From: Burkholderiales bacterium 70-64
GTDB lineage: Bacteria; Pseudomonadota; Gammaproteobacteria; Burkholderiales; Burkholderiaceae_E
Length of the DNA: 64,000 nucleotides
Assembly: GCA_001898645.1 (NCBI GenBank)
Contig: MKUQ01000010.1
Coordinates: forward strand, 62,001 to 126,000
Direction of reading: 5' to 3'
Shown: piece by piece, positions 26,417 through 62,536 of the stretch
How the letters are laid out: each line of letters opens with the position of its first letter
Numbering within the stretch: position 1 is the first letter of the stretch
Made by a program: the position numbers and the translations under genes
The notes under the pieces: model-generated
Database searches by the model: none
What the model saw: only the letters and a program-made list of their open reading frames with translations
Told to the model about the DNA's origin: nothing

Positions 26417-26423
26417 CCGCGCC

Positions 26424-33762: not shown

Positions 33763-33799
33763 CGGCCCTGCTCGGCAGTCGTGCGATATGCGATCGCTG

Positions 33800-34675: not shown

Positions 34676-35361
34676 GGCTTCCTTCCCCAGAACACGAGGG
34701 ATCCGACGAGATAGCCGTACAGACCCGCACTTGCGAGCAGGCGGCGCGCCATATAGCTGATTCGGGTCGACTGTCCTCGTCTCGACTCCACGAAGCGAAC
34801 GAAATGGGGAACCGAAACCCTTCGGGAAGTTCCGACCAGTGCCTCCGGGTTGTCCGCTGATGGAAGAGCCGTGAAGACCTCGATATCTCCGATGCCCGAA
34901 CTTTCGAGCATCGAACGCAGCGATCGCGGCGTATGGCCCGCCGGATGCTGGCTCTTCCCGTGGCCGCTTCTCCCCATCCAGTGTTGGCGAAGCTGGGCAA
35001 GCGAGTAGCGATTCGTCACGCAGCCCGCCACGATCCCTCCCGGAGCCAGCGCTCTGCTGACTTCGCCCAGCAAGGCGATCTGACGATCGCGCCCCGATTG
35101 CCGCTTCCGGCCGACCGAGGCGCTATCCAGCGTCCAATGCAACAGGATGAAATCGAAGGCAGCCGTCTCATTGGTATCGGCTATGCTTTCGGCTCCCCGT
35201 CCATACGCCCGATTGCGCACCGTCGTCTGTGCTCGCCATTCGGCATCGATCATCGGCTGGGAGCCAGCGACAAACAGTTCGAGCGCCCTCCTCGGGCGCA
35301 AGTCGCCGGGGAGGCGGTACATTGCCCGAACCCTTGCTCGACTTGATTCATAAGTTCGCAT
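34648..35361 (-). CDS. Methyltransferase-like protein with degenerate SAM motif
   Basis: A 237-residue product (from ATG 35361, MRTYESSRARVRAMY; the frame opens at 35415). The fold looks like a class I methyltransferase: AFDFILLHWTLDSA in the place of motif II/III, then EVSRALAPGGIVAGCVTN and a SLRSMLESSGIGDIEVF segment like post-motif III. Motif I is not a normal GxGxG but ALELFVAGSQ, so cofactor binding is doubtful. A hydrophobic C-terminal stretch (SAGLYGYLVGSLVFWG) may sit in the membrane. It sits between another methyltransferase and the kinase-like gene, with a 28-base overlap downstream. Lower G+C than the core locus suggests it came by transfer. Confidence 0.6.
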   Translation of the reverse strand: MRTYESSRARVRAMYRLPGDLRPRRALELFVAGSQPMIDAEWRAQTTVRNRAYGRGAESIADTNETAAFDFILLHWTLDSASVGRKRQSGRDRQIALLGEVSRALAPGGIVAGCVTNRYSLAQLRQHWMGRSGHGKSQHPAGHTPRSLRSMLESSGIGDIEVFTALPSADNPEALVGTSRRVSVPHFVRFVESRRGQSTRISYMARRLLASAGLYGYLVGSLVFWGRKPCSISSSSR

Positions 35362-35422
35362 GTGGACGTGCGCCGCAGGTTCGACTCGATCGAGATCCTT
35401 GCTCGCCGCAGCCACCAGGCGT

Positions 35423-36157
35423 CTACGCTACCGCCGGACGCTTTCCCGTGCGCCTGAAGAGATAGACCGTATCCGGCGCGATCGGGGCGAGGAAGCTCGC
35501 GCCAAAGATCCGTTCCATTCTCTCCTCTCGCGCAGGATCGTGCAGGGGTTCGTTCATGAGCTTGCCGCGAAACTTCCAAACCCCGATCGGGCGGCTGAGC
35601 ATCAGCTCGAACCCGAATCGCGCGAGCAATGCCTTCAATCCGGAATGCGTCAGGTCCATCCCGTGGTCCTCACCCGTCGCACCCAGCAGGAGATGCGCGA
35701 TGGCACGCGGGTTCCTGTGGTTGTTCACCAGCAGGTATCCCCCTGGCGCCACCAGCCCCTCGAGCACCCCGAGGACCTTCTCGCGAAGCTCGCCCTGGGC
35801 GTTGCCGAAGAACCGGAACGAGCTGACGAGATCGAAGGATCCAAGCGAGCATTCGTCCTTGGTCAGATCCGCCTGGACGAAGCGTGCTCCGGGAATCTTG
35901 CTCCTGGCGGTTTCGAGCATGGTCGTCGAAATGTCGACACCCACGCACTCGCGCGCGTGCGGCTCGATCACCGCGGTGATCCTCCCCGTGCCACAGGCGA
36001 AATCGAGGTAGCGCTCTATCCCTCGGGGAAACCGGCTGCGCATGATCTCCTCGACACGCTGCGCCTCCCAACGCGCCATGTAGGCGTCGAAGGCGGAGGC
36101 TGCAAGCGTCTGATCGTAATCACCGCCTCGGTTCAGGTGGCTATCTCGGTAATCCAT
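35423..36157 (-). CDS. SAM-dependent class I methyltransferase
   Basis: A 244-residue methyltransferase with a clear motif I (LDFACGTGR, residues 51-59), GVDISTTMLETAR as motif II, FDLVSSFRFFGN and a LEGLVAPGGYLLVNNHRN motif III. The start at 36157 (MDYRDSHLNRGGDYDQ) is chosen because the longer frame runs into the upstream flippase gene; the gap to that gene is then 56 bases. The substrate is unknown; a sugar hydroxyl or carboxyl of the glycan is likely from context. It lies downstream of the flippase gene on the same strand, ahead of a second, degenerate methyltransferase-like protein. Confidence 0.82.
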   Translation of the reverse strand: MDYRDSHLNRGGDYDQTLAASAFDAYMARWEAQRVEEIMRSRFPRGIERYLDFACGTGRITAVIEPHARECVGVDISTTMLETARSKIPGARFVQADLTKDECSLGSFDLVSSFRFFGNAQGELREKVLGVLEGLVAPGGYLLVNNHRNPRAIAHLLLGATGEDHGMDLTHSGLKALLARFGFELMLSRPIGVWKFRGKLMNEPLHDPAREERMERIFGASFLAPIAPDTVYLFRRTGKRPAVA

Positions 36158-36213
36158 GAATTCGATATGTTCCGGTTGTCGATGAAACTCGAGAGCATCC
36201 TGGCCACGGATCC

Positions 36214-37695
36214 TCAAGCCCGGCTGAAGGATCGACGAAGCAAGGCAAGTACCCATCGCTCCGCGCCTTCCGGGCAGCCGGATAGCCGCCAAAGCAACGC
36301 CAATGCACCGGTATAGGCCAATGCGCCAGCGAGAATCTTGGTCACCAGCAAGATAGCCGGATGCATCGAGCCACCCGCCATGCCGATCGCCGCGACGCAC
36401 GCGGCCATGATGCCCGCTGCAACCACGGAGCGCCATACAGCCTTCAGGCAGGCTCTGAAATCGACCACATTCGTGCCCAGCAGCGCCACCGTGATCAAGG
36501 CAATGGAGAACAATACCGAAGTCACGAGCCGCACCAAGGCAACGGAGTTCACATCCAATCGATCGGACAAGGCGAACAGCGAGCCGGCCAGCACGAGGCA
36601 GTTACCCCAGTAGACCGACGCCTGGTCCCGGAATCGACCCATTGCAATCAGCAGGTAGTTGAAACCGCTGCTTACGCCGCTCAAGCCGTAGGACAAGGCC
36701 AGCACCGTAAGGAGCGGAACGGCGACGAGCCATTTTTCCCCGAGCAGGACGCGGACGGCTTCGGGGCTTACGAGGGCCAGGCCGATGCTGGCAGGCACTG
36801 CAACCATGGCCTGAACGCCCAGGCCGCTCAGAAAGATACGCCTGAACTCCTCCGGCAGGTGCTGCTTCTGCGACAGGGCCGGAAAGATCGCACGGTTCAT
36901 CGGAAGGAGCAGCTCCGACGACGGCATTGCCGCCACCTGGTCGGCCAGCGTATACGCGCCGAGGTTCGATGAACCGGCGATCTTGCCGACGAACAGCTTG
37001 TCGACCTGCTCCGAGGCGTAGCGACCCATGCTCCACGCGGTCAGCCAGATGGATGCGCTCGCAAAACGGCGCCAGCGCCGGAAGGTCGGCCTCCTGATCG
37101 TCGGACTCATCCAGTAGCTCAGGGCCACGCCGAACAGGGTGCCGAACAACGAGCCGACGATCAGCGCCCAATAGTTCCTCAGGTAAATGGCCAGCGCCAG
37201 CGTCACGAGGAAGGTCGCCATGCGCCGAGACATGAAGAAGGTCACTTCACGCGCGTATTCGCGCCGGCGCTGGAACAACACAGCCGACATGTTGCTCAGC
37301 CCCGCCAAGCACATCGAAAGCGCCTGGATCTGGAGCACGAGCTTCAGGCGCGGATCCCCGTAGAAGGCCGATATGCTCGGCGCCAGTGCGGCAAGGACGC
37401 CGGCGATCATCAGAAATTCGACCAGCTGAATGGTCCAGCCCGTATCGATATCGGTCTCGTCGATCTCGTTCATCTGCACGAGGCGGATGGGAACGCCGAG
37501 GTCGAGCATCATCGACGCGAGGCCGATGACGACGGTCGCAAGGGCCACGAGGCCGAAATCGTCGGGAGTGAGCAGGCGGGCGAGCACTATCGTGCTGATC
37601 GCGCCGACGGCCCGGTCGAACCATCTCATCACCACATACAGGAGCGCGCCCGACGTGATGGAACGAGCGCCCAGGAGTCGCTTGCGCAGGCTCAT
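36214..37695 (-). CDS. Wzx-type polysaccharide flippase (MOP superfamily)
   Basis: A 493-residue membrane protein with about 12-14 hydrophobic segments and no soluble domain. Near the N-terminus, GALLYVVMRWFDRAVGAIST and LARLLTPDDFGLVALATVV match lipopolysaccharide/exopolysaccharide flippases that move undecaprenyl-linked repeat units across the inner membrane. It is the only obvious flippase in the window and should serve the XrtA-locus glycan. It is on the - strand, between the deacetylase (48 bases upstream) and the methyltransferase. G+C is lower than in the core export run. Confidence 0.9.
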   Translation of the reverse strand: MSLRKRLLGARSITSGALLYVVMRWFDRAVGAISTIVLARLLTPDDFGLVALATVVIGLASMMLDLGVPIRLVQMNEIDETDIDTGWTIQLVEFLMIAGVLAALAPSISAFYGDPRLKLVLQIQALSMCLAGLSNMSAVLFQRRREYAREVTFFMSRRMATFLVTLALAIYLRNYWALIVGSLFGTLFGVALSYWMSPTIRRPTFRRWRRFASASIWLTAWSMGRYASEQVDKLFVGKIAGSSNLGAYTLADQVAAMPSSELLLPMNRAIFPALSQKQHLPEEFRRIFLSGLGVQAMVAVPASIGLALVSPEAVRVLLGEKWLVAVPLLTVLALSYGLSGVSSGFNYLLIAMGRFRDQASVYWGNCLVLAGSLFALSDRLDVNSVALVRLVTSVLFSIALITVALLGTNVVDFRACLKAVWRSVVAAGIMAACVAAIGMAGGSMHPAILLVTKILAGALAYTGALALLWRLSGCPEGAERWVLALLRRSFSRA

Positions 37696-37743
37696 CCGAC
37701 AGCGCCCCCCGTCGTCCTGTTTCGCCGCTCCTGCATCGGCGGC

Positions 37744-38691
37744 TCAGGCCGCACGCGCCACATTGCGCAGTGCCCGCACCCGAAAGCGCAGCGGCGAGCG
37801 GTCCCAGGGCGTAAAACGAGGCAGCATCATGGCCGCGCTCGATCGATCCGCCACACCGGCATGAGTCGTGAACGCGAAACGAAACCCTGCACTCGCCACC
37901 ATCCGCGCGTGTCGATCGTCGAAGTCGCTGCCGAGCCTGCCGTTGGGATATGCGAACAGATCGGGACTTGTTCCGACGATCGCTGCGATATCGTCGGCCC
38001 CGTTGACGATCTCCGCCAGCGACTCCTCATCGTTCAGCGCAAGCAGGATGGGGTGGGTGCGCGTATGCCCGCCAACGCGCATGCCGGCGCCGTGCAGCCG
38101 TGCGACCAGTCCGGGTTCCATCATCATTTCCGATCGGCCGGTTTGCCCGAGACCGTGTTCGAGTTCCAGCACACGCGAGTGCCGCTCATCGGGTGGCAAA
38201 TGCTTGACCGCCCGCAGGATCCGCTCGATCGCGATGCGTCGTTCGGCCAGATCCCGGATCGGAAGCCGATCGGCGGTGCCCGGTATCGCAAGAGAGTCTC
38301 CGGCAGCCTTGCGCACCGCCTCGATCACCCGGTCGTTGAACATCATTCCGCCGTCGAGGAAGCCCGTGGCGATGAAGAAGGCCGCTCCCATCCGGTGCCG
38401 CTGCAGGATCGGCAGCGCCACGGTGTAGTTGTCGCGATAGCCGTCGTCGAAGGTGATGACCGCCGGCCTCGACGGCAGGGTGCCGTCGTAGAGTCGCTCG
38501 CAGGCCTCCAGCGGGTCGAGCACGCGGAACTGCGCGCCGATCCAGCCGAGGATCCGGTCGAACATGCGAGCGTCCGGCTCGTCCGGCAGCAGCGGGTCGG
38601 GCTCGGCGAGCGTACGGTGGAAGTAGAACACCGACAGCCGGCTACGCGGCCCCGCCGGGGCGGCCATCGCCGTCAGCGCGCGCAGGATCAC
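37744..38691 (-). CDS. Polysaccharide deacetylase family protein (NodB domain)
   Basis: A 315-residue carbohydrate-esterase-4-type protein. It shows the catalytic Asp motif TFDDGYRDN, the metal-site segment VGGHTRTHP and a C-terminal FAYPNGR and GFRFAFTTH. No signal peptide is evident. I chose the GTG at 38691 because it overlaps the stop of the upstream asparagine-synthase-like gene as GTGA, a common coupling arrangement; an internal ATG (MAAPAGPRS) is an alternative. It may deacetylate a precursor or the polymer. It is followed by the flippase gene. Confidence 0.85.
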   Translation of the reverse strand: MILRALTAMAAPAGPRSRLSVFYFHRTLAEPDPLLPDEPDARMFDRILGWIGAQFRVLDPLEACERLYDGTLPSRPAVITFDDGYRDNYTVALPILQRHRMGAAFFIATGFLDGGMMFNDRVIEAVRKAAGDSLAIPGTADRLPIRDLAERRIAIERILRAVKHLPPDERHSRVLELEHGLGQTGRSEMMMEPGLVARLHGAGMRVGGHTRTHPILLALNDEESLAEIVNGADDIAAIVGTSPDLFAYPNGRLGSDFDDRHARMVASAGFRFAFTTHAGVADRSSAAMMLPRFTPWDRSPLRFRVRALRNVARAA

Positions 38692-40523
38692 GGCGCCTCC
38701 GCGCGGATGTCGGCGAGCGGAGAAGCGCGCAGCCACAGCTCGAGGATCATCAGCACCCAGACCATGGTGCCGAAATAGCCGGCATGGCCCGAGGCGAGCT
38801 GCGCCAGCAGGCGCTGCATGAATTCCGGGCGGATCACGCCGCGCGCGGCGAGCGAACGCAGGGCATCGTCGGCCATGGCACGCAGCTTCTCGTGGGTGAG
38901 CAGCCAGTCACCGAACGGCAGCCCGAAGCCGTGCTTCTCCTTGGCGATGATCTCGTCGGGCAGGAAGCCGCGCAGCGACTCCTTGAAGAAATAGCGCAGG
39001 GTGCGCCCCTTGAGCTTCTCGCCCGGGCGCAGCCGCAGGGAGTGCTCCACCAGCGCATGGGTGATCATGGGAAACGACACCTCGACCCCGGCCGCCTGGC
39101 ACATGCGAGTGACCTTGGGCAGGTCGCTGTCGGCCAGGGTGAACTTGAAATCCCAGGCGAGCAGCCGGTTGATCTGCGACATCTCCCGGCTCGGCGCCGC
39201 CGTCTGCGCGCGCGCGCGCGACCACACTTCGCGCTCGAGCGCGAGCGGCTCATCCAGCTGCACCTGCGCGAGCACCGCCTCGCCGAACACCTCGCTCGCC
39301 CCCAGCCGGTTGAGCAGGTTGTAGCGGCTCTGCAGCCGGTCGGGCAGCGGTTCGTTGGCCTGCTCCACGTAGCTGCGCGCCTTGGCGATCAGCCTTGCAT
39401 CGACGTTCTTCAGCGGCCCGAAGAGCAGCGGCTCGAGCAGGCCGCTGCGCAGGATGCCGGGGGCGCGCTGGTAAAGCGCGAAGACGGCCTGCTTGGCGTA
39501 GCGTTCGTTGCCGCCGTAGAGCTCGTCGCCGCCGTCGCCCCCCAGCATGCGCGTCACGCCGGCCTCGCGCGCGAGGCGCGCACAGAAGAAGGTGGGCAGC
39601 GCCGAGGAGTTGCCGAACGGCTGCTCGTAGCGGGTGGCCACGGCCTCCACGCCGGCGAGCACGTCGTCAGGCGTCACGAAGTACTCGGTATGCTCGGTGC
39701 CGAAGTGCCTGGCCGCCAGGCGCGAGTACATCGTCTCGTCGTAGCCGCCCACGTCGAAGCCGATCGAGAAGGTGCGCGCCGGCGCGCCGTACTGGCGCGT
39801 CACCAGTCCCGCGATGGTCGAGCTGTCGGTGCCGCCCGAAAGAAAGCAGCCGACCTCCTCCTGCGCCAAGCCGGCCGTGCACTCGGCCACCCCGCTGCGC
39901 AGGGCGTCGAGGAACGCCTCCCGCTCGCTGGAGAAATCGAACGGGCGCTGCTCCTCGAACACCGGATTCCAGTAGCGGAATACCTCGGCGCGGCCGCCCT
40001 CGATGCGCAAGGCCTCGCCGAGATCCAGCCGGCGCACGCCCTCGTAGACGCTCAGCGGGGCGGGAATCACGTGGAAATAGGCGTAGGCCAGCACCGCCTG
40101 CCAGTCCGGCGCCAGCGACGCACCGGCATGCCCGGCAGCCTGGTCGGGACGTGCCGAGAAGCCCAGGGCATCGCCGTGCGTGGTCCAGAAGAGCGGATAG
40201 GTCGAGAACCGGTCGACCGCGAGGAGCGCGCGAGCGCCGTCGCGATCCCACAGGGCGACGAGGAACTCGCCGGCGAGCGCCTCGAGCGCCCTGTCACCCT
40301 CTTCCAGCCAGCACGCGAGGAGGGCTGCGGCGGGATCGCCCGTCTCCGGTCCGGCACGGCTGCCCAGCAGGCGCAGCCGGCCGAACACGATGGCGCCCGC
40401 GCCGCCGCGCCGGGCCACATGCAGCCCGCGAACATCCTTCGGCGGTGCCTCGATGACCGGTGAATCGATGTGGGCGGATCTCAGGCCGAGCCGCCCCGAG
40501 AAAGGGATCGGGAGAAGGGACAA
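38688..40523 (-). CDS. Asparagine-synthase-like protein lacking the glutaminase Cys
   Basis: A 611-residue protein with the two-domain layout of AsnB. The synthetase domain is intact: ATP loop FLSGGTDSSTIAG, RTFSIGFDVGGYDE, and GGDGGDELYGGNERY. The N-terminal domain aligns in length but begins MSLLPIPFSG with no Cys2, so it cannot use glutamine in the normal way; it may use another amine, or get ammonia from a partner. The start is TTG at 40523 with a GAGGA nearby. It is first in a - strand run with the deacetylase and flippase, with a four-base overlap downstream. Its role in glycan or amino-acid amide formation is inferred. Confidence 0.82.
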   Translation of the reverse strand: MSLLPIPFSGRLGLRSAHIDSPVIEAPPKDVRGLHVARRGGAGAIVFGRLRLLGSRAGPETGDPAAALLACWLEEGDRALEALAGEFLVALWDRDGARALLAVDRFSTYPLFWTTHGDALGFSARPDQAAGHAGASLAPDWQAVLAYAYFHVIPAPLSVYEGVRRLDLGEALRIEGGRAEVFRYWNPVFEEQRPFDFSSEREAFLDALRSGVAECTAGLAQEEVGCFLSGGTDSSTIAGLVTRQYGAPARTFSIGFDVGGYDETMYSRLAARHFGTEHTEYFVTPDDVLAGVEAVATRYEQPFGNSSALPTFFCARLAREAGVTRMLGGDGGDELYGGNERYAKQAVFALYQRAPGILRSGLLEPLLFGPLKNVDARLIAKARSYVEQANEPLPDRLQSRYNLLNRLGASEVFGEAVLAQVQLDEPLALEREVWSRARAQTAAPSREMSQINRLLAWDFKFTLADSDLPKVTRMCQAAGVEVSFPMITHALVEHSLRLRPGEKLKGRTLRYFFKESLRGFLPDEIIAKEKHGFGLPFGDWLLTHEKLRAMADDALRSLAARGVIRPEFMQRLLAQLASGHAGYFGTMVWVLMILELWLRASPLADIRAEAP

Positions 40524-40712
40524 ATCATCCTCGGCTGCGCAAACCTAGCACTTTACCGTCATGCGGCAATCGAGACTGTTGGCTTTCTCACCATCCAATG
40601 ATAGCGGCAATGCCGTTCATCGGAGGGGCATGAGGCAGTGCCATGAAACAATGCCTTGTGCGAGCCATATGCTCTACGTAGCATCGATGTCGAATGACGC
40701 GAGCGGTTGCCG
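40524..40712. other. Divergent intergenic region between asnB-like and Mur-Pth genes
   Basis: This 189-base stretch separates two divergent genes and should hold both promoters. It is visibly less G+C-rich than the flanks. I found no sigma-54 spacing match on either strand, no good -35/-10 pair, and no hairpin worth naming. Confidence 0.4.
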
Positions 40713-42575
40713 GTGAACAACGCCATTGAGCGCCTGGGTGCGACTCTTTCCGACCTCCGGCGAGCCGTGAGGAAGCGAGTTCACGACCGCGGCAGGCACC
40801 ACGCGGCCCGCCTGAACCGGCGTCGCCTGGGCAGCGTCATCTTCATCGGCATCACCGGCAGCGCCGGAAAGACCACCACCAAGACGCTCGCCGCGGGCAT
40901 CCTGTCGTCGCGAGGGCCTTGCCAGTGGAGCCATGGATCGGGCAACGAGCACTACGACGTCGAGTGGACCGTCCTCAAGACCACGCGCCGGCACGAGTTC
41001 TGCGTCGTGGAAGCGGGAGCCCCCGAGCCGGGCTACCTGGACAGATCCCTGCGCGTTCTCCGCCCACACATCGGCGTGCTGACCCTGATTGCGCGCGAGC
41101 ACTACAGCGCCTACCGCAGCGCCGAGGCGATCGCGGCGGAGAAAGCGAAGCTGATCGCCGCCCTGCCTGAAGACGGCGTCGCAGTCCTGAATATCGACGA
41201 CCCGCTGGTCCGCGCGATCGGGGCACGCCATACCGGGCGGATCGTCTGGGTAGGAAGGGCCGAAGGCGCGACGATCCGGCTGCTCGAGTCGAGCTCGCGT
41301 TGGCCGCAGCCGCTGACCCTGCGCGTACGCTTCGAGGACGCCGAGCATGAGGTCCTCACGCGCCTGCACGGCGAGCACCTCGCCCTTCCGGTGCTGGCCG
41401 CCCTGGGGGTGGCGCTGGGGGCCGGGATGCCGTTTCCCGACGCGCTGCACGCGCTGTCGCTGCTCGAGCCGGCCCAGGGCCGCATGCAGATCGAGCGCAG
41501 CGACGACGGCGTGGTCTTCGTCCGGGACGACTGGAAAGCGCCCCAATGGTCGTTCCAGGCGCCGCTGGAGTTCCTGCGAAACGCCCATGCGCAACGCAAG
41601 GTCGCCGTCATCGGCACGATCTCGGACTCGTCGAAGTCGCCTTCTCAGCGCTACGCATGGGCAGCAAAGCAGGCGCTCGCGGTCGCGGATCTCGTCGTGC
41701 TGGTGGGCATCGGGTCGTTCGGCGCATCGAGATCGCACGCCGGACCGCAGGAACGGCCGCTGCATGCATTCGCGAGCCTGCACGACGCCGCGCGCTTCCT
41801 GCGCACGGAGTTGCGTGCGGGCGATCTCGTTCTACTGAAGGGAACCAACCTGCAGGATCACCTGGTGCGGCTCGTCCTCGACAGGAACCGCCCGGTCAGC
41901 TGCTGGGACACTGCCTGCGGCCGCAACGAATTCTGCGGATCGTGCCCGAGAGTGCACGCCGATCCCTCTTTCGGCCTGGCAGATCCCGGGCCCGAACGCG
42001 ACACGGTACCGGCACCGGCCGGATCCGGGCAGCCGGTCATCGTCGGGCTGGGCAATCCCGGCACCGGCTTTCGTGAGACGCGGCACAATGTCGGTCATCG
42101 CGTGCTCGATGCCCTGGTGGAAAGCGCCGGCGCTTCCTGGCGGCAGGTTACGGAGGGATGGGTGAGCTCGGTGCTCCTGGAAGGCCAGTCGGTCACGTTG
42201 CTCAAACCGGGCGTGAACATCAACGACAGCGGCACGGTGATCCGGAGGTTCCTGGACAAGGAAGGAGGCACGGCGGCCGACTGCATCGTCGTCCTCGACG
42301 ACATGGACATTCCGCTCGGGCAGGTTCGGACGAAACGCGAGGGCGGCGATGCCGGCCACAAGGGGATGAGGTCGATCATCGCCGCCATGGGCAGCGACGC
42401 GATCTCCAGGATCCGCGTCGGCGTCAGACGTCCGGGCGATGCCCGGCAGGCCGGGGAACTGGTGCTGAAGCAGTTCTCCGCGGACGAGAAGGCGGCGCTC
42501 ATGACAGGCTTGAAGCAGGCCGAGGCCGCGATCCGCGAGATGATCGGAAGCAAGTCCACCCAGACCGCGAGTTGA
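40713..42575 (+). CDS. Fusion: MurF-like Mur ligase + Cys4 linker + peptidyl-tRNA-hydrolase-like domain
   Basis: A 620-residue two-enzyme fusion. Residues about 40-380 are a Mur ligase: ATP loop GITGSAGKTTT (46-56), RHEFCVVEAGAPEPG, a conserved EKAKLIAALPEDGVAVLN segment holding the usual carbamylated Lys, and a C-terminal ligase domain where the MurF DSYNAN-type motif reads RDDWKAPQW. A linker has four cysteines (397, 402, 408, 411; CX4CX5CX2C). Residues about 440-610 are Pth-like: VGLGNPGTGFRETRHNVGH, KPGVNINDSG and LDDMDIPLG. Pth residues Asn10, His20, Asn68, Asp93 and His113 are kept, but the Asn114 place is Lys550. Start GTG 40713; TTG 40707 is possible. Function unknown; amide ligation to a sugar or peptide carrier is my inference. 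Confidence 0.85.
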   Translation: MNNAIERLGATLSDLRRAVRKRVHDRGRHHAARLNRRRLGSVIFIGITGSAGKTTTKTLAAGILSSRGPCQWSHGSGNEHYDVEWTVLKTTRRHEFCVVEAGAPEPGYLDRSLRVLRPHIGVLTLIAREHYSAYRSAEAIAAEKAKLIAALPEDGVAVLNIDDPLVRAIGARHTGRIVWVGRAEGATIRLLESSSRWPQPLTLRVRFEDAEHEVLTRLHGEHLALPVLAALGVALGAGMPFPDALHALSLLEPAQGRMQIERSDDGVVFVRDDWKAPQWSFQAPLEFLRNAHAQRKVAVIGTISDSSKSPSQRYAWAAKQALAVADLVVLVGIGSFGASRSHAGPQERPLHAFASLHDAARFLRTELRAGDLVLLKGTNLQDHLVRLVLDRNRPVSCWDTACGRNEFCGSCPRVHADPSFGLADPGPERDTVPAPAGSGQPVIVGLGNPGTGFRETRHNVGHRVLDALVESAGASWRQVTEGWVSSVLLEGQSVTLLKPGVNINDSGTVIRRFLDKEGGTAADCIVVLDDMDIPLGQVRTKREGGDAGHKGMRSIIAAMGSDAISRIRVGVRRPGDARQAGELVLKQFSADEKAALMTGLKQAEAAIREMIGSKSTQTAS

Positions 42576-42582
42576 GCAGCCC

Positions 42583-43611
42583 ATGCGGGGACGAGCGCGC
42601 GCCACCCTGACGGCGATGAGCGAGGTCGTGCACGGCGCGGCGCGGCGCTTCGGCATCCCCGCGGCATTGCTGTGGCCGCGCGTGCTGCGCCGATTCTTCC
42701 TCGACCGCTTTTCCGTGGCCGAGCTTCGCGCCTACGCGCCCTTCGTCGGCGAGGTGCTCGATACCCTCCCCGTGGTGATCAGCAAGGAGGCCTCCCTGGA
42801 CAGGCTGGCGCGCATCAACCCGCGCGGCCTGCAATGGCAGACGGAAGACAAGGAGAAGTTCTACGGGATCTGCGTGAGCAAGGGGATTCCCCATCCCCGG
42901 GTGTGCGCCGTCATCGGCAATGGCCGCGACACCCGCCACGGCGAGCTGCCGACCCATTTCATCTCGAAGGACCAGGGCGGCGCCTATGCCTCGGGCTTCG
43001 CGGTCTTCGAACGTACGGACGCCGATCAGGTACGAGTCAACGCGGGCCCGCCCGAGCCGCTGAAGGACGTCCTGGAACGGCTGGCGCGCGGCCGATCCTC
43101 CTTGCTGCTGCAGGAACGGCTGTTCGATCATCCCGGCCTGCAGGCCCTGTCGGCCAGGCCGGTGCTGCAGAGCGCCCGCATCAATACCTTTCGTGCCGCC
43201 GAGGGGCGCTGCAGGCTGCTCTTCTGGATGATCAAGCTCGTCACCGGGCGCAACTTCTCCGACAATTTCTCCGGCGGACGATCCGGAAACCTGATCGCCT
43301 TCGGCGCCCCCGACAGCGGGAAGCTGCTGGGGGCACGCACCTTGCACCCCAGCGGCGTGGGCCTGACGACGATCCTGAACCATCCCGAGACCAACCGGCC
43401 GCTCGCCGGGTTCACCGTTCCGCTGTGGCAGGAGGCGGTCGCCACCGCATTGCAGGCCCACCGCCACTTCCCCGACTTCGGCGCGCTCGGGTGGGATGTC
43501 GCCATCACCGCCGACGGGCCGAAGATCCTCGAGGCCAACGCGTGGTGGGATCCGCCCACGTATGCACCGCAGATCATGGCCGCCGATGACTGGCGGGCGA
43601 TCTTCGGGTAG
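42583..43611 (+). CDS. Sugar-transfer-associated ATP-grasp family protein
   Basis: A 342-residue ATP-grasp protein. The nucleotide-binding core includes FISKDQGGAYASG and LLLQERLFDHPG, and the metal-binding C-terminal motif is GWDVAITADGPKILEANAWWDPP. These features match the group of ATP-grasp enzymes found in polysaccharide and sugar-transfer loci, which should join a carboxylate to an amine or thiol using ATP. It begins seven bases after the Mur-Pth fusion, and its TAG stop overlaps the next start (TAGTG), so the three genes are probably co-translated. An internal ATG at 42616 is an alternative start. Substrates are unknown. Confidence 0.8.
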   Translation: MRGRARATLTAMSEVVHGAARRFGIPAALLWPRVLRRFFLDRFSVAELRAYAPFVGEVLDTLPVVISKEASLDRLARINPRGLQWQTEDKEKFYGICVSKGIPHPRVCAVIGNGRDTRHGELPTHFISKDQGGAYASGFAVFERTDADQVRVNAGPPEPLKDVLERLARGRSSLLLQERLFDHPGLQALSARPVLQSARINTFRAAEGRCRLLFWMIKLVTGRNFSDNFSGGRSGNLIAFGAPDSGKLLGARTLHPSGVGLTTILNHPETNRPLAGFTVPLWQEAVATALQAHRHFPDFGALGWDVAITADGPKILEANAWWDPPTYAPQIMAADDWRAIFG

Positions 43612-44588
43612 TGTCGCACCCGCTCATGCAACTCGTCCTCAGTTTCGACGTCGAAGTCTGGTGCAACGGCTGGGACCGCCTGGACGAGGAATTCCCGCGC
43701 GCCTTCGAGCGCTATGTCTACGGCCATTCCCGCACTGCCGGCGGCGCCCTGCCCCTGACCCTGAAGATCCTGCGTCGCCACGGCATCCGCGCGGTGTTCT
43801 TCGTGGAACCGCTGTTCGCCGCGCGCTTCGGGCTACGCTACCTGCGCGAGATCGTGGAGCTCATCGGCGCCGACGGCCACGACCTCCAGATGCACCTGCA
43901 CTCCGAGTGGGCCGACGAGATCCGGCCCAGGCCTCTCGAGCACATCCCCGACAAGCGCCAGCACCTGCAGTACCTGTCGTACGAGGACCAGCTCACCCTG
44001 ATCCGCACCGGACTGGCTCTGCTGCACGATGCCGGCGTGCCCCGCATCACGGCGTTTCGTGCCGGCAGCTTCGCGGCCAACGGCGACACCCTGCGCGCGC
44101 TCGCCGCAGCCGGCATCGCGGTGGACAGCAGCATCAATGCGGCCATGGCGATCTCGATGCCCGACCGGCGCGACTCCATCGACCTCTACCAGCCGAGCCG
44201 CGTCGACGGGCTCCTGTCGGTGCCGCTGACGGTATTTCGCGACGGCCTCGGCCGGCTTCGCCCGGCGCAGGTCGGCGCGTGCTCCTTCGAGGAGCTTCGC
44301 GAGGTGATCGAATGGGCGCTCGCGCACGACTGGCCGGCCGTCTCGATCCTCTCGCACAATTTCGAGATGCTGCGCCCCGACAGCATCCGCATCGATCCCA
44401 TCGTGGCGCATCGATTCGAGCGCCTGTGCGCATTCATCGCGAGCCGGGCGCCCGCCGTACGAACCGGCGGGCTGGCCGGCTGCAGCATCGCGCCCTCCGC
44501 GGCCGCCCTGGCGCTGCCGGCGGTCGGCCGTCGCGCCACGGTGCGGCGCCTTGCCGAACAACTGGCGCGCCGCGCCCTTCGCCGATAA
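43611..44588 (+). CDS. Polysaccharide-deacetylase-like protein
   Basis: A 325-residue protein starting MSHPLMQLVLSFDVEVWCNG (GTG 43611; ATG 43626 is a second choice and gives the more usual MQLVLSFDVE start). It resembles NodB-fold deacetylases: an early DVE, HDLQMHLHSEW with His residues where the metal site should be, ITAFRAGSFAANGDTL, and VSILSHNFEML near residue 240. The metal-binding pattern is HLH rather than the usual HxxxH, so activity may differ. It overlaps the ATP-grasp gene by one base and precedes the GNAT-like gene by four bases, forming part of the Mur-Pth cassette. Confidence 0.72.
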   Translation: MSHPLMQLVLSFDVEVWCNGWDRLDEEFPRAFERYVYGHSRTAGGALPLTLKILRRHGIRAVFFVEPLFAARFGLRYLREIVELIGADGHDLQMHLHSEWADEIRPRPLEHIPDKRQHLQYLSYEDQLTLIRTGLALLHDAGVPRITAFRAGSFAANGDTLRALAAAGIAVDSSINAAMAISMPDRRDSIDLYQPSRVDGLLSVPLTVFRDGLGRLRPAQVGACSFEELREVIEWALAHDWPAVSILSHNFEMLRPDSIRIDPIVAHRFERLCAFIASRAPAVRTGGLAGCSIAPSAAALALPAVGRRATVRRLAEQLARRALRR

Positions 44589-44592
44589 GACC

Positions 44593-45549
44593 ATGCCCGA
44601 GCACCCGCCTACCGGATGGCGATCGATCAGCACCAGCCTCGCATACCGCATCGCCGCCTGGACCGTCTGGTACTGGCGCTTCGACGCGCTCGCCGACGAG
44701 CGGCACTTCACCGAGATGGCGCCGGACGAGGGCCTGCAGGCCTTGCCGCCCGCCGGCAAGGCCGGGCGCGGCACCTTCGTCTTTCCTGCCTATCCCGTCT
44801 CGGCCGCACCGCCCGCCGTCGCCGCCCGGGAGGGACGGCTGGTCTACACCCCGAAGACCTTTCCGAACTACTACGTCGACCTGAAGCTCGAAGGCGGGTT
44901 CGAGCGCTACCTCCAGGGCTTTTCGTCGAAATCGCGCTCCACGCTCAAGCGCAAGGTCCGGCGCTACGCCGAAGCCGATTCCACGGGCGAGCTCCACTGG
45001 CGCGTGTACCGCTCTCCCGAGGAGATCGCGGAGTTCCTTCCGCAGGCCGGTGCGCTGTCGGCACGCACCTATCAGGCCCGCCTGCTCGACGTCGGCCTGC
45101 CCGAGGGGCCCGAATTCCGCGCACAGGCCATGGCGCTCGCCGCAAGCGGCCAGGCGCGCGGCTTCATCCTGTTCCTGGACGGCCGGCCTGCAGCCTACGT
45201 CTACTGCAGCTGTCGCAACGGCGTGGCCACCTACGACTACGTGGGCCACGATCCGGCGCTGAATGCGCTCTCGCCCGGCACCGTGCTGCAGTACAAGATC
45301 CTCGAGTACCTGTTCGAGGATCCGCAGATGCGGGTGTTCGATTTCACGGAAGGGGAAGGCGAGCACAAGGCGATGTTCGCCACGGGGCGCATGCTGTGCG
45401 CCAAATCGCTGGTGTTCGGTCTGCGCCCCGGCATCCGGCTGCTGGTGCGCCTGCACTGGCTCACCGGCCGCGCGGACGAAGCGCTCGACGCCCTGCTCGA
45501 CCGCCTGGGTATCCGGCGTGCGCTGCGGCGGTTGATCCGCAGGGCATGA
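44593..45549 (+). CDS. GNAT/FemAB-like acyltransferase (BioF2-like)
   Basis: A 318-residue protein of the GNAT-fold group that includes FemAB-like and CelD-like transferases. It shows KSRSTLKRKVRRYAE, where substrate helix residues lie, and the core GFILFLDGRPAAYVYCSC and DYVGHDPALNALSPGTVLQY, then VFDFTEGEGEHKAMFATG. These proteins move an acyl or aminoacyl group to a sugar amine. I chose ATG 44593; the frame is open to a TTG at 44551 inside the previous gene. It is last in the Mur-Pth run. Nine bases later lies the stop of the convergent ATP-grasp gene, spanned by a 12-base palindrome AGCGCCGGCGCT. Confidence 0.78.
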   Translation: MPEHPPTGWRSISTSLAYRIAAWTVWYWRFDALADERHFTEMAPDEGLQALPPAGKAGRGTFVFPAYPVSAAPPAVAAREGRLVYTPKTFPNYYVDLKLEGGFERYLQGFSSKSRSTLKRKVRRYAEADSTGELHWRVYRSPEEIAEFLPQAGALSARTYQARLLDVGLPEGPEFRAQAMALAASGQARGFILFLDGRPAAYVYCSCRNGVATYDYVGHDPALNALSPGTVLQYKILEYLFEDPQMRVFDFTEGEGEHKAMFATGRMLCAKSLVFGLRPGIRLLVRLHWLTGRADEALDALLDRLGIRRALRRLIRRA

Positions 45550-45558
45550 GCGCCGGCG

Positions 45559-46641
45559 CTATCCCCGGCCGCGAGCCTTGTGCATCCAGTCGCTGAAGTG
45601 CGGCGCGGGGTCGAGCAGCGGCTGCACGACTCCCCTGAGATTGCGCAGGCTCACCCCGTCCATCTTCCACGGGCGCCGCAGCGCGTCCAGCAGCGCCTTG
45701 GGCAGGTAGTACTGCCCGGGGACGAGGTGCATGCCGCGTGCCGGATCCTCGCCGCGCGCGGCCCGGATGCCCGCCTCGACGAAGTTCACCCCCTGCCACA
45801 TGGCGGCAGGCATGGAGTACCAGAAGCGCGGATTGCACTCGAGCACGCTGACCCGGCCGGTGCGCTCGTCCACCCGCATGTCGAAGTGCGCCACACCGTG
45901 ATAGCCGTACTCGGCGATGATGGCGTCGGCCAGACGCCGGGTGGGGGCATCCGGAAAGAAGCGCAGGGCGCCGTTGCGCTCGAGCTGCTGCGTGACCGCC
46001 AGCCTGACCTGCCCGTGCTCGGCCAGCACGCTGATGTCGATGTCGCGTCCGTGCAGGTATTGCTGCGCGATGAGCGGCGGGGTCGAATACGGCCGCCCGC
46101 TGCGCACATGCTCGATCAGCGGATCCAGCGCATCGAAGCGCAGCACGCCGTGGCTGGATTCCCCCGAGAGCGGCTTCACGATCAGCGGAAAGCCGATCTC
46201 GGCGGCAGCCGGCGCGGCATCGTCGGGCGTGGCGATGAGCGCCGTCCTCGGCGTGGCGAGCCCCGCCTTCATGAGCGTGGAGGCGAACAGCCACTTGTCG
46301 TGCAGGCGGTCCAGCAGATCCGTGCCGCTGCACGGATACACCAGCACGCCTTCGAGGGAAGCGGCGGCCGCGGCGAGGAACCCGGCGGTACCGATGTCGC
46401 CGGGAATTACGACCTCGATGCCGTGGCGGGCGCAGTAGTCGCGCAGCCACGCGATCGTCTCGCCGGTATCGCCCGCTCCCGACACGCCGGGATGCACCAC
46501 GAAGGCATCCACATGGCGCGATCGCCGGGCGAGATTGGTCTCGCAGGTGGCGGCCAGGTGAACGCGCACGCGCAAGGGCACGAGACAGTACACCACCTTG
46601 AGGTTCAGCGGACCGGAACTTCCCAGCAGCAGCACCGTCAT
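45559..46641 (-). CDS. ATP-grasp carboxylate-amine ligase-like protein
   Basis: A 360-residue ATP-grasp protein of the carbamoyl-phosphate-synthase-like group. It has a pre-ATP domain with VIPGDIGTAGFLAAA, a core with FPLIVKPLSGESSHGV and IAQQYLHGRDIDISV, and the metal motif FDMRVDERTGRVSVLECNPRFW. The start at 46641 (MTVLLLGSSGPLNLK) has GAGGGG six bases upstream. It follows the PLP-dependent decarboxylase by 10 bases on the same strand, so it is probably the third gene of the acyl-CoA ligase-decarboxylase operon, and may use the amine made there. Substrates are unknown. Confidence 0.8.
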   Translation of the reverse strand: MTVLLLGSSGPLNLKVVYCLVPLRVRVHLAATCETNLARRSRHVDAFVVHPGVSGAGDTGETIAWLRDYCARHGIEVVIPGDIGTAGFLAAAAASLEGVLVYPCSGTDLLDRLHDKWLFASTLMKAGLATPRTALIATPDDAAPAAAEIGFPLIVKPLSGESSHGVLRFDALDPLIEHVRSGRPYSTPPLIAQQYLHGRDIDISVLAEHGQVRLAVTQQLERNGALRFFPDAPTRRLADAIIAEYGYHGVAHFDMRVDERTGRVSVLECNPRFWYSMPAAMWQGVNFVEAGIRAARGEDPARGMHLVPGQYYLPKALLDALRRPWKMDGVSLRNLRGVVQPLLDPAPHFSDWMHKARGRG

Positions 46642-46651
46642 CGGCAACCCC

Positions 46652-47902
46652 TCAAACCAGTACTTCCCCCGCTGCAGGATGACCGAGGAAGGCAGCTGGG
46701 CTGGCCGTCGGCCCGTAGGCGCCCGACTGGAACACCGCGATCAGGTCGCCGGGCTGCGCGCGCGCGAGCATCATGCGGTCGGCAAGGACGTCGAGCGGCG
46801 TGCACAGGGGCCCCACCACCGTCTGCACCTCGTCGAGCGGCGCCTCGATGCGGTTGGCCACGGCCACCGGATAGTTCTTGCGCAGCACTTGGCCGAAGTT
46901 GCCCGAGGCCGCCAGGTGATGGTGCAGGCCGCCGTCGGCGACGAGGAACACCTGGCCGCAGGATTCCTTGCGATCGAGCACCCGGCACACATACAGCCCG
47001 GCGTGCGCGACCAGGTAGCGGCCCAGCTCGATGACCAGCGGCGCATCGAGATCGGCGTGCGCGCGCTCGCACAGGCGGTGCAGGTTCGCGGCCACCGGCG
47101 CGAGATCCAGCTCGTGCTCGTTCGGGAAATAGGGCACCCCCAGGCCGCCGCCCAGGTTCAGCCACTCCACGGGCGCCGCCCAGTGCCGCAGCAGCGACAG
47201 GCCCAGCTCGTAGGTCTTCTGCTGGGCATCGACGATCGCTTCGGCGCGCAGGTTCTGCGATCCGCCGAAGATGTGCAGCCCGCACAGATGGGCGCCGTCG
47301 GCGCGCACCCGATCGAGCACCTCCGGCACCTTCGCCTCGTCGATGCCGAAGGGCTTGGGCCCGCCGCCCATCCTCATTCCGGAAGATTTCAGCTCGAAGG
47401 CGGGATTCACGCGCACCGCCACCCGCGGCCGCACGCCGAGCGCCTCGCCGGCCGCCACCGCCTGCTCGAGCTGCAGGGCAGACTCCACCGTCACCGTGAT
47501 GCCGGCGGCCACCGCCTGGCGGATCTCGGCCGCGGTCTTGCCCGGCCCGGCGAAGCTCACCCGCTGCGGGGCGATCCCGGTGTCGAGGGCCACCCGCATC
47601 TCCTGCGCCGAAGCCACGTCGAGCCCGTCGGTAAGCGCAGCCAGGTGCTGGACCACGGCCGGCATCGGATTGGCCTTGATCGCATAGTGCAGGTGCAAGG
47701 CGGCAGGCAGCGCCGCGCGCAGCGACTGCACCCGCATGGAGATCGCCGCGCGATCGTAGACATAGAACGGCGTGCGCCCGACGCGCTCGGCCAGGCGCCC
47801 GATCGGAATGCCGCCCGGGGCGATCTGGCCATCGACGACCGGAAAGAAGCTCGTGGGGGCGTGCTGGGCGAAGCGGATCTCGGTCGTGGCCGGCACCGTC
47901 AT
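46652..47902 (-). CDS. XrtA-associated PLP-dependent amino-acid decarboxylase
   Basis: A 416-residue fold-type III decarboxylase related to diaminopimelate and ornithine decarboxylases. The PLP Lys is Lys76 in LHYAIKANP; other signatures are NLGGGLGVPY, IELGRYLVAHAG and VVGPLCTPLDVLA, which holds the usual active-site Cys. This group is found in exosortase A loci next to an acyl-CoA ligase and carrier protein and probably makes an amine from an amino acid, possibly carrier-bound. The start overlaps the acyl-CoA ligase stop by four bases (ATGA), so they are coupled. Confidence 0.9.
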   Translation of the reverse strand: MTVPATTEIRFAQHAPTSFFPVVDGQIAPGGIPIGRLAERVGRTPFYVYDRAAISMRVQSLRAALPAALHLHYAIKANPMPAVVQHLAALTDGLDVASAQEMRVALDTGIAPQRVSFAGPGKTAAEIRQAVAAGITVTVESALQLEQAVAAGEALGVRPRVAVRVNPAFELKSSGMRMGGGPKPFGIDEAKVPEVLDRVRADGAHLCGLHIFGGSQNLRAEAIVDAQQKTYELGLSLLRHWAAPVEWLNLGGGLGVPYFPNEHELDLAPVAANLHRLCERAHADLDAPLVIELGRYLVAHAGLYVCRVLDRKESCGQVFLVADGGLHHHLAASGNFGQVLRKNYPVAVANRIEAPLDEVQTVVGPLCTPLDVLADRMMLARAQPGDLIAVFQSGAYGPTASPAAFLGHPAAGEVLV

Positions 47903-49515
47903 GCCCGTCCCCTTGCCGTCCCGGCTTCGCCGCCGCCCGCGAAGAGCGCCGCGCGCTCGCCGGCGAGCGCCTTGCGGTCGATCTTGCCGTTGGCGTTGCG
48001 CGGCAGGGCCGCAGCGACCCAGTCGACGTGCTGCGGCAGCATGAAGGCCGGCAGCTGCGCCTTGCAGGCCTCGACGAGGGCCGCGGTGTCGGCCGCCTTG
48101 CCCTCGGCCGGCTGCGCCACCAGCACGATGGCCTGGCCGAGCGCCGGATGCTCGACCCCGAAGGCGGCTGCCTCGGCCACCAGCCCGGTGCCGTAGACGA
48201 CTTCCTCGATCTCGGTGGGGCTTACGCGGTAGCCCGAGGTCTTGATCATCTCGTCGCGCCGGCTGACGAAGTAGAGGAACCCCTCCTCGTCGCGCCTGAC
48301 CGTATCGCCCGACCACACCGCCAGCTCGGTGAGCACCAGTTCCCTCCTCTGCCCCGGCAGCGGCTTGAAGCGCTCGGCAGTCTTCTCCGGGTCGTTCCAG
48401 TAACCCAGCGAAACCAGCGCGCCCCGGTGCACCAGCTCGCCCGGCTCGCCCGGGGCACATTCGCTGCCGTCTTCCCGCACCACCAGGATCTCGGCGTTCG
48501 GGATCGCCTTGCCCATCGAGGTCGGCCGCCGATCGACTTCCTCGGGCGGCAGGTAGGTGGAGCGGAACGCCTCGGTGAGACCATACATCAGGTAGGGTCT
48601 GGAGCTCGGCACGCGCCTGCGCAGCTCGGCCAGGGTCGCCGTGGGCATGGCGCCGCCCGAGTTGGTGAAGTAGCGCAGGTGCTCGTCGATCGATGCCGGC
48701 CACTCGAGCGCCGCGAGCTGGATCCACAGCGGCGGCACGGCCGCCAGGCCGGTGATGCGCTCGCGTACCAGGGCACGGATCACGTCCTGGGGCAGCAGGT
48801 AGTTGTGCAGCACGGCCGTGGCGCCCACCAGGAACGAGGTTGTCAGCTGAGACAGGCCATAGTCGAACGAGAGCGGAAGCACCGCGAGAATGCGGTCGGC
48901 CGGAGTATTGCCCAGGTAGGTCGACACGCTGCGCGCGCCTTCGACGATGTTGCGGTGGGAGAGCACCACCCCCTTGGGCTTGCCGGTACTGCCCGAGGTG
49001 TAGAGGATGGCGGCCATGTCGACGTCGATCGGACGCCGAATGGCCGTACCCGATGAAGCCTCGGCCATCATCGCCTGCCACGTGACGACACGCACGCCGG
49101 GGCTCTGCACCGCCGTGCCGCCTCCTACGATCACGACATGCCGCAGGTCGGGGCATTCGCCGATGCTTTCGCACAACGCCGCCCATCGTTGCGCCGTCGT
49201 CACCAACACCTCGACGTTGCAGTCTCGCGCGATGTAGGCGGCCTGCGCAGCCTTGAGCAGCGGGTTGACCGGCACGAAGACGCAGCCGGCACGGGCCGTA
49301 CCGAAGATGGCCACAACAGCTTCGATCTGTTTGTCCATCCAGATGCCGACCCGGGTGTCACGCGTCTTTGCAACGCCGGCCAGGGCCCGTGAGAATGTCA
49401 CGATGGCGGAACGAAGATCGTCATAGCTCAGGGCCCGTTCCCCGGCAACGAGCGCCCGGGCTGCTTCGCCGGTACGCAATGCGCCAAATGCCAGCTCACC
49501 CACCAGATTCGACAT
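47899..49515 (-). CDS. XrtA-associated acyl-CoA ligase (AMP-forming)
   Basis: A 538-residue ANL-superfamily adenylating enzyme. Core motifs are LYTSGSTGKPKGV (A3), YLMYGLTEAFRSTYL (A5) and WSGDTVRRDEEGFLYF (A7) followed by a C-terminal lid ending in NGKIDRKAL, with the Lys of the A10 motif. It should activate a carboxylic or amino acid and pass it to a thiol, perhaps the carrier protein encoded divergently at 49651. The start at 49515 (MSNLVGELAFGALR) follows GGGGA; TTG/ATG further upstream at 49539 is less supported. It heads the operon with the decarboxylase and an ATP-grasp gene. Confidence 0.92.
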   Translation of the reverse strand: MSNLVGELAFGALRTGEAARALVAGERALSYDDLRSAIVTFSRALAGVAKTRDTRVGIWMDKQIEAVVAIFGTARAGCVFVPVNPLLKAAQAAYIARDCNVEVLVTTAQRWAALCESIGECPDLRHVVIVGGGTAVQSPGVRVVTWQAMMAEASSGTAIRRPIDVDMAAILYTSGSTGKPKGVVLSHRNIVEGARSVSTYLGNTPADRILAVLPLSFDYGLSQLTTSFLVGATAVLHNYLLPQDVIRALVRERITGLAAVPPLWIQLAALEWPASIDEHLRYFTNSGGAMPTATLAELRRRVPSSRPYLMYGLTEAFRSTYLPPEEVDRRPTSMGKAIPNAEILVVREDGSECAPGEPGELVHRGALVSLGYWNDPEKTAERFKPLPGQRRELVLTELAVWSGDTVRRDEEGFLYFVSRRDEMIKTSGYRVSPTEIEEVVYGTGLVAEAAAFGVEHPALGQAIVLVAQPAEGKAADTAALVEACKAQLPAFMLPQHVDWVAAALPRNANGKIDRKALAGERAALFAGGGEAGTARGRA

Positions 49516-49650
49516 CAGATTCCCCAGTTCCGCACCCAACTCGTCAGTCTATCGGCTCGTCGACGGCCCGGGCGTTAGCAAATGCACGCTCCTGCGGCCG
49601 GCAATTGGTACACTGACCGACCGGTTGCAGGCATCTATCCCCTTCGAACC

Positions 49651-49908
49651 ATGGATCTTACGAAAACGCTCGCCCACATTCTCAGTGCCCAGCTCGGACC
49701 GACCTACCCTGCGGAGACGTTCGGCGCCGACACGGCGCTGCTCGGCGAGATCCCGGAGCTGGATTCGATGGCGGTCGTCGGCATCCTTGCCGCGATCGAA
49801 GACGAGACCGGAATCGAGATACCCGATGACGAGGTTTCAGCGGATGCGTTTGCCACATTCAGCACGCTCGAAGCGTTTGTACAGCGGCAGCTCCTATCAT
49901 CGCGTTGA
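49651..49908 (+). CDS. Acyl carrier protein
   Basis: An 85-residue acidic carrier protein with the phosphopantetheine site at Ser39 in ELDSMAVVG, preceded by a helix MDLTKTLAHILSAQLG and followed by EDETGIEIPDDEV, the usual helix II-III layout. It is divergent from the acyl-CoA ligase gene with 135 bases between starts, and would carry the group activated by that enzyme. The ATG at 49651 starts the conserved helix; the frame is open upstream to 49582. No clear sigma-54 or -35/-10 element is seen in the gap. Confidence 0.9.
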   Translation: MDLTKTLAHILSAQLGPTYPAETFGADTALLGEIPELDSMAVVGILAAIEDETGIEIPDDEVSADAFATFSTLEAFVQRQLLSSR

Positions 49909-62529: not shown

Positions 62530-62536
62530 CGTTTGT

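Follow-up and report, generated by a model that had tools for sequence, protein, structure and literature searches.

The locus described here raises the question of why a Mur-type ligase and a complete peptidyl-tRNA hydrolase (Pth) domain should be encoded as one protein among exopolysaccharide genes, and of what such a protein may do there. The gene lies in a 64,000-nucleotide stretch of DNA from Burkholderiales bacterium 70-64, referred to below as the window.

The fusion gene and its recurrence

The fusion gene extended from position 40707 to 42575 on the forward strand (622 codons, TTG start), and an alternative in-frame GTG start, the one used in the preliminary description, was present six bases further on at 40713. 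The frame was open throughout, and its third-position GC stayed between 0.77 and 0.91 over sliding blocks, so that a frameshift joining two genes was not indicated. Pfam searches identified, in this order and all on the forward strand, the ATP-binding middle domain of Mur ligases (PF08245, Mur_ligase_M, residues 49-236, 40851-41414, E = 3.9e-28), their C-terminal domain (PF02875, Mur_ligase_C, residues 258-380, 41478-41846, E = 3.1e-09) and, behind a Cys4 tail (CWxxxCxxxxxCxxC, residues 399-413, 41901-41945), a Pth domain (PF01195, Pept_tRNA_hydro, residues 444-616, 42036-42554, E = 5.2e-45) which covered profile positions 1-174 of 183. The Pth half reached 154 bits against a PF01195 cut-off of 27 (138-145 bits in the three other fusions described below) and 141.9 bits against the cut-off of 100 of the NCBIfam equivalog model TIGR00447 (pth). 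These searches bear out the initial reading of a single frame, free of internal stops, that carries a Mur ligase and then a Pth domain. The predicted structure of the protein, built from four aligned sequences, was poor (mean pLDDT 59.6, pTM 0.40).

Four such fused genes were found in three genomes. Besides the window, they occurred as two copies about 40 kb apart on one contig of G818 (G818a and G818b, 52% and 51% identical to the window fusion, respectively) and as one copy in G182 (38%). G818, which supplies two of the four fusions, is a Burkholderiaceae metagenome-assembled genome, 88% complete and 4% contaminated. With the whole protein as query and a threshold of E <= 1e-60, in draws of genomes that overlap, matches were retrieved in 2 of 74 genomes of the family (the window's own and G818), 3 of 399 from the order (its own, G182 with a fusion and G107 with a Mur ligase only), 1 of 398 genomes of the phylum (its own) and 1 of 22 genomes of the family of G182 (G182 itself). 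A contig collection yielded three loci, one of which (L003) was a full fusion and belonged to the same genome as G818. Among 72,556 plasmid records, 90 gave some match and none reached 80% cover by one place. Likewise, no report of a Mur-Pth fusion was met in the open-licence PMC literature among the matches listed, as judged from titles and the first parts of abstracts.

A sequencing artefact joining two genes had been named beforehand as one of the findings that would overturn the preliminary description. A spurious union of unrelated genes, by chance or in assembly, might be suspected because the window's genome is a draft of 63 contigs; it is nevertheless extremely improbable, since the same architecture was present at full length in three further genes of two other genomes, one of them (G182) a single contig of 3.8 Mb, the coding signal was continuous, and the fused Pth domains fell on one side of a single branch (support 99/97) of the Pth tree. 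The fusion is genuine, and an assembly artefact is excluded.

The fused Pth type is also rare in the genomes sampled, and distinct. A profile built from the four fused Pth domains matched 332 of 399 genomes of the order, largely those of the whole-protein search, at E <= 1e-30 (the window's genome was not among the rows listed in this search), with 292.7 bits for the G182 fusion and 151.1 for the match ranked behind it. Because G182 was itself part of the profile, the comparison was repeated against 38 canonical sequences, leaving one fusion out each time: the omitted fusion scored 217.1, 201.0, 188.9 and 156.6 bits, against 146.2, 141.4, 146.1 and 138.5 for the respective best canonical Pth, the margin being narrowest for G182. 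Each fusion genome carried elsewhere a separate canonical Pth with a higher score (211.8, 215.2 and 229.2 bits in the window's genome G000, G818 and G182, respectively), and the fusion is therefore not the housekeeping enzyme. As a side observation, genome G295 gave two Pth matches in the order-wide search.

Residues kept and changed in the two halves

The four fused Pth domains were aligned with 38 canonical sequences, none of which was dropped: seven came from genomes searched for a canonical pth, two from Clostridia (L004, L005), and 29 (L031-L059) were the matches ranked next after the fusion in the order-wide profile search; 36 of the 38 belonged to one order, and since the 29 were chosen by likeness to the fused type, they are not expected to inflate the differences. 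Residues are given in what we take to be E. coli Pth numbering, set on sequence motifs. Among 36 columns invariant in the canonical sequences, 21 were retained in all four fusions and 15 were altered in at least one. N10, H20, N21, N68, D93 and H113 were present in every fusion (N10, H20, N68 and D93 being N450, H460, N506 and D531 in the window), as were basic residues at positions 103, 105 and 133 (K103, K105 and R133 in E. coli). Positions 93, 94 and 96, all Asp in the four fusions, presumably correspond to D82/E83/D85 as numbered in one of the studies cited below.

Other positions had changed. Asn at 114, found in 38 of 38 canonical sequences, was replaced by K, K, K and R (K552 in the window); the aromatic residue at 66 (F/Y/W in 38 of 38) by N, D, P and A; and R19, also canonical in 38 of 38, was lost in three fusions (R, P, V, P). 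H188 was absent from all four, the canonical sequences having H in 36 and N in 2. Positions 67 (M67 in E. coli) and 15 were variable, with I, I, M, M and F, Y, Y, H in the fusions, the latter against Y in 33 and H in 5 canonical sequences. The fused domains were only 34-45% identical to one another.

Published passages on Pth structure and activity allow these positions to be read functionally. N9 (E. coli N10) is described as discriminating peptidyl- from aminoacyl-tRNA (PMC11994314; see also PMC11202043), D82/E83/D85 as the pocket of the terminal adenine (PMC11994314), K103/K105/R133 as contacts of the tRNA 5'-phosphate, F66/Y15 as stacking on the adenine, and N185/H188 as touching the T-arm (PMC11202043). 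Position 114 is stated to hold Asn or a positively charged residue: the Pth of T. thermophilus carries Arg103 there and is active, its R103A variant retaining 6.1% of wild-type kcat/Km (PMC11994314). The idea that the change of N114 to Lys marks a dead or non-hydrolytic enzyme was dropped because of this active Arg-bearing enzyme. With catalytic residues, acidic pocket and basic clamp kept and F66 and H188 lost, the hydrolytic centre of the fused domain looks competent for an N-acylaminoacyl-adenosine ester, its grip on the remaining tRNA looks weakened, and the domain as a whole looks re-targeted. The label 'Pth-like' of the preliminary description thus holds for the hydrolytic residues and the adenine pocket, and fails for part of tRNA recognition.

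In the Mur half, the P-loop Lys55, Glu102, His132 and Lys146, the last aligning with the Lys of the MurF motif AKGE, were invariant in six of six aligned relatives, fused or not, and hence in all four fusions. Together with the middle and C-terminal domains, these residues place the protein in the Mur ligase superfamily. The score against TIGR01143 (murF) was 179.1 bits, below the cut-off of 288.6, so that the half is MurF-like, as described at the outset, and is not called MurF. The P-loop domain starts after only about 45 residues, and no N-terminal UDP-sugar-binding domain was matched at E 0.001 in the Mur half of the window. In the fused group and in G107, the sequence DD(W/F/M)KAP stood at the position of DDSYNANP of MurF. 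The residues of the Cys4 tail (C399, W400, C404, C410, C413) were invariant in six of six aligned members irrespective of fusion, and relatives from G1095 and G317 retained the four Cys and had no Trp; the tail is a candidate zinc site.

Relatives and gene neighbourhood

Mur-only relatives were retrieved as well. At E <= 1e-50, 2 of 274 genomes of the class were retrieved (the window's own, fused, and G909, Mur only); at E <= 1e-60, 3 of 20 genomes of the order of G909 (G909, G1102, and G1095 with two genes in tandem); and at E <= 1e-70, 4 of 399 genomes of the window's order (its own and G182, fused, G107, and G317 with two genes). A weaker Mur-only relative (32% identity) was located on a Gemmobacter plasmid, surrounded by genes for glycosyltransferases and a pyruvyl transferase. 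A close Mur-only relative stands, in G107, in the same kind of locus as the fusion, so the Pth part is dispensable for some members of this ligase family. The suggestion that separate Pth genes might adjoin the Mur-only relatives was discarded, as tblastn in seven stretches around such genes (L012, L028, L029, L069-L072) found nothing convincing (best E 0.028, all matches short).

The Pth and Mur trees agreed on the branching order of the fusions, (G182,(G818b,(window,G818a))), in keeping with joint evolution of the two halves. Support within the group was modest (97/75 and 94/75 for Pth, 85/84 and 82/78 for Mur), and the fused Pth branches were long and fast-evolving, so that they could be grouped falsely, as the tree tool cautions. 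G107 was placed by the Mur tree inside the fused group (98/99), the split of the whole group from the others having only 80/69. The most economical history would be a single fusion event, after which the G107 line lost its Pth part; alternatively, the Pth part may have spread later.

The window is an exosortase-A (XrtA/PEP-CTERM) exopolysaccharide locus, in agreement with the preliminary description. Nine models scored above cut-off (TIGR03109, 03006, 03019, 03088, 03108, 03098, 03099, 02916 and 03016), a set that includes PrsK, exosortase A, a deacetylase, a FemAB protein, a glycosyltransferase and an amidotransferase. On the forward strand, the XrtA deacetylase (TIGR03006) and FemAB (TIGR03019) genes (25574-27548) are followed by exosortase A (27560-29212, TIGR03109) and the XrtA system amidotransferase (30477-32423, TIGR03108). 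On the reverse strand lie a polysaccharide flippase-type gene (36214-37695), a polysaccharide deacetylase (37744-38736) and, next to the fusion and divergent from it, a second asparagine-synthase-like amidotransferase (38688-40523). A gene for a sugar-transfer-associated ATP-grasp protein (42583-43611, forward, PF14397) begins seven bases after the fusion; the name of this family probably goes back to the 2009 amidoligase survey of Iyer and colleagues. The ATP-grasp gene is followed on the same strand by a deacetylase-like gene (43611-44588, weak PF01522, below cut-off), whose product is 31% identical to that of a gene in the G107 Mur-only locus, and, overlapping its end, by a FemAB/GNAT-type transferase (44551-45549, PF13480). 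Further on are, on the reverse strand, another ATP-grasp protein (45559-46647, PF15632/PF02655), the XrtA-associated PLP decarboxylase (46655-47914, TIGR03099) and the XrtA-associated AMP-forming ligase (47899-49539, TIGR03098), which also matched amino-acid adenylation domains below their cut-off, and, on the forward strand, an acyl/peptidyl carrier protein (49582-49908, PF00550, 26 bits against a cut-off of 20.8).

Related surroundings were found elsewhere. The G182 locus has exosortase-A-associated genes for a ligase, a decarboxylase and two hydrolases, together with two ATP-grasp genes; the G818b locus has the XrtA markers TIGR03108 and TIGR03006, a second Mur ligase and an ATP-grasp gene; the G107 locus has TIGR03108 and TIGR03088 with three ATP-grasp genes. 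Asparagine-synthase-like genes adjoin the Mur gene in G909 and G1102 and, by BLAST, in one G317 locus. PF14397 genes were present within 10 kb of three of the four fusions (window, G818b, G182) and were not found among the ORFs examined beside G818a; an obligatory ATP-grasp partner was rejected for this reason. In Rubrivivax, a PEP-CTERM polysaccharide cluster with FemAB and asparagine-synthase genes is reported to have been struck in a transposon screen (PMC3684757).

Possible roles and comparison with known systems

Mur ligases form an acyl phosphate, which is then attacked by an amine. On this basis the fusion may be a bifunctional enzyme that decorates exopolysaccharide, with two active sites acting in sequence via aminoacyl-tRNA, a model that we prefer only tentatively and that is more probably wrong than right. 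The Mur half would phosphorylate a carboxylate on a precursor of the glycan, such as that of a uronic acid, and would join the activated carboxylate to the amino group of an aminoacyl-tRNA. The resulting N-acyl-aminoacyl-tRNA would belong to the substrate class that Pth separates from free aminoacyl-tRNA via N10, and the fused Pth half would then cleave the ester, freeing both the tRNA and the sugar, now decorated with the amino acid. Such a sequence would give a reason for joining Mur and Pth, and for the persistence of N10, H20, N68 and D93 amid drift. A comparable order of steps is described for the peptide aminoacyl-tRNA ligases (PEARLs), in which, on peptides, an acyl phosphate is attacked by aminoacyl-tRNA and tRNA hydrolysis comes last (PMC10979984).

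This sequential tRNA model, which rests on four fusion sequences, would be favoured by the catalytic residues and the acidic adenine pocket retained in all four (the former in both halves), by a basic 5'-phosphate clamp and a Lys/Arg at 114, where the active T. thermophilus Pth has Arg, by the window's Pth half scoring over the NCBI pth cut-off, by the shared branching order of the halves and, by analogy, by the PEARL step order on another scaffold. It is also favoured by the separate canonical pth of each fusion genome and by the FemAB, ATP-grasp and amidotransferase genes around the fusion. Against it would speak the loss of the F66 aromatic residue and of H188 in four of four fusions and of R19 in three, the lack of any direct sign of tRNA use in the Mur half, and the position of Mur-only G107 inside the fused group with no convincing Pth relative in the stretch searched around it.

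A re-targeted esterase that has given up tRNA binding is nearly as likely as the sequential tRNA model; it is favoured by the retention of hydrolytic residues and acidic adenine pocket alongside the loss of F66 and the C-terminal tRNA-body contact. The Pth half would in this case hydrolyse an activated acyl ester that is smaller and carries an adenylate or phosphate group, such as an acyl-adenylate or a CoA- or carrier-linked aminoacyl unit from the branch formed by XrtA ligase, carrier protein and decarboxylase, as an editing or release step for the Mur ligase. The genes for that branch lie within about 7.5 kb of the window fusion, and ligase and decarboxylase directly adjoin the fusion in G182; NCBI, however, names this pair as a general exosortase-A feature rather than one special to fusion loci, and the 5'-phosphate clamp positions, basic in all four fusions, would have no obvious use with a small substrate. 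A use in tRNA salvage seems unlikely: here a FemAB/GNAT-type enzyme would consume aminoacyl-tRNA and the Pth half would clear N-acylated by-products, its link to the Mur ligase serving co-localisation alone. FemAB-type genes do lie near the fusion in the window and in G182, and Fem/MurM-type ligases are described as able to use aminoacyl-tRNA (PMC2922099), but such use by these GNAT-type proteins is an assumption and the genome already has an ordinary pth. We rate a little lower still the view that the Pth fold is a non-catalytic module merely holding RNA or a nucleotide-linked substrate for the Mur ligase. Fast evolution, long branches and the 15 altered columns would suit it, whereas N10, H20, N68 and D93 were retained in domains as divergent as these, and a Pth with Arg at 114 is known to be active (PMC11994314).

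The proposal, made at the outset, that (amino)acyl units might be moved from a carrier to a sugar fits the evidence, and the sequential tRNA model suggests in particular an exopolysaccharide sugar decorated with amino acids taken from tRNA. More doubtful than the sequential model itself is its extension to a second class of amide ligase, of Mur type and dependent on aminoacyl-tRNA, with built-in tRNA release. Such a ligase would place amino acids on an extracellular polysaccharide, and the selectivity of its Pth domain for N-blocked aminoacyl-tRNA would enforce 'ligate first, then release'. If true, Pth, known as a translation housekeeping enzyme, would have been recruited into polysaccharide biosynthesis and aminoacyl-tRNA would feed a Mur-type ligase, linking translation, peptidoglycan-type ligases and exopolysaccharide decoration; there would also be a reason for the many amide-forming enzymes of XrtA loci (asparagine-synthase-like, ATP-grasp, FemAB).

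Among known systems, Pth1 (PF01195, TIGR00447) shares with the window fusion the whole domain, above both curated cut-offs, and with the fusions generally the four catalytic-centre residues, the acidic adenine pocket and the basic 5'-phosphate clamp; Lys/Arg in place of N114 is reported for some thermophile Pths as well. Unlike Pth1, the fused domain sits behind a Mur ligase as a second gene beside an ordinary pth, and in four of four fusions the F66 aromatic and C-terminal H188 contacts of tRNA recognition are missing. MurF and other Mur ligases (PF08245 and PF02875) have in common with the fusion the ATP-binding middle and C-terminal domains with the P-loop Lys, Glu, His and AKGE-aligned Lys. 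The fusion departs from MurF in having no detected N-terminal UDP-substrate domain, DDxKAP for DDSYNANP and a score below the MurF cut-off, as well as a C-terminal Cys4 tail and an exopolysaccharide context. The amidating pair MurT/GatD likewise places a Mur-like ligase alongside an amidotransferase, described as glutamine-dependent, whereas the amidotransferase neighbours of the fusion are asparagine-synthase-like. MurT/GatD has a Cys-rich zinc element and, to our knowledge, no Pth domain. With PEARLs, finally, the likeness is one of proposed chemistry only and homology is not claimed: they reportedly derive from ATP-grasp enzymes and act on peptides (PMC10979984), whereas in the fusion the hydrolase would be built into the ligase itself.

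Composition and gene content around the fusions

Genes at 32392-38736 of the window had third-position GC contents of 0.74-0.81, versus 0.90-0.91 for the adjoining genes at 30477 (XrtA amidotransferase) and 38688 (second asparagine-synthase-like amidotransferase), and none of the three ORFs tested from this segment had a Pfam match. The segment is possibly an exchanged portion of the locus. On the minus strand, positions 60787-62571 encode a 594-residue protein without a Pfam match, which shared 57% identity with the product of L013:4303-6276, located close to fusion copy G818a; the only hit of this L013 product was a sub-threshold one to asparagine synthase.

Duplicated and tandem Mur ligases

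Two diverged copies of the fusion, G818a (L013:7181-9328) and G818b (L015:8022-9872), were found about 40 kb apart on contig C5 of the Burkholderiaceae MAG G818. A second Mur ligase (L015:6440-7954), which carries the MurF-like motif DDSYNASP and lacks the Cys4 tail, directly adjoins G818b, an arrangement that would suit successive ligations. Two Mur-only members of the subfamily (matches L062 and L063) were in tandem in G1095 (L070:7025-9699), a genome from another order within the class, near genes for a YkuD L,D-transpeptidase and a sulfate permease. For a further genome, G295, the scan of 399 genomes of the order with the fused-Pth profile listed two matches.

The C-domain motif of the Mur ligase

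In the window fusion, the motif RDDWKAPQ (residues 273-280; 41523-41546) occupies the position of DDSYNANP in MurF. The form DD(W/F/M)KAP was common to all four fusions and the Mur-only relative G107 and was absent from another such relative, G909; the motif may therefore signal a different acceptor.
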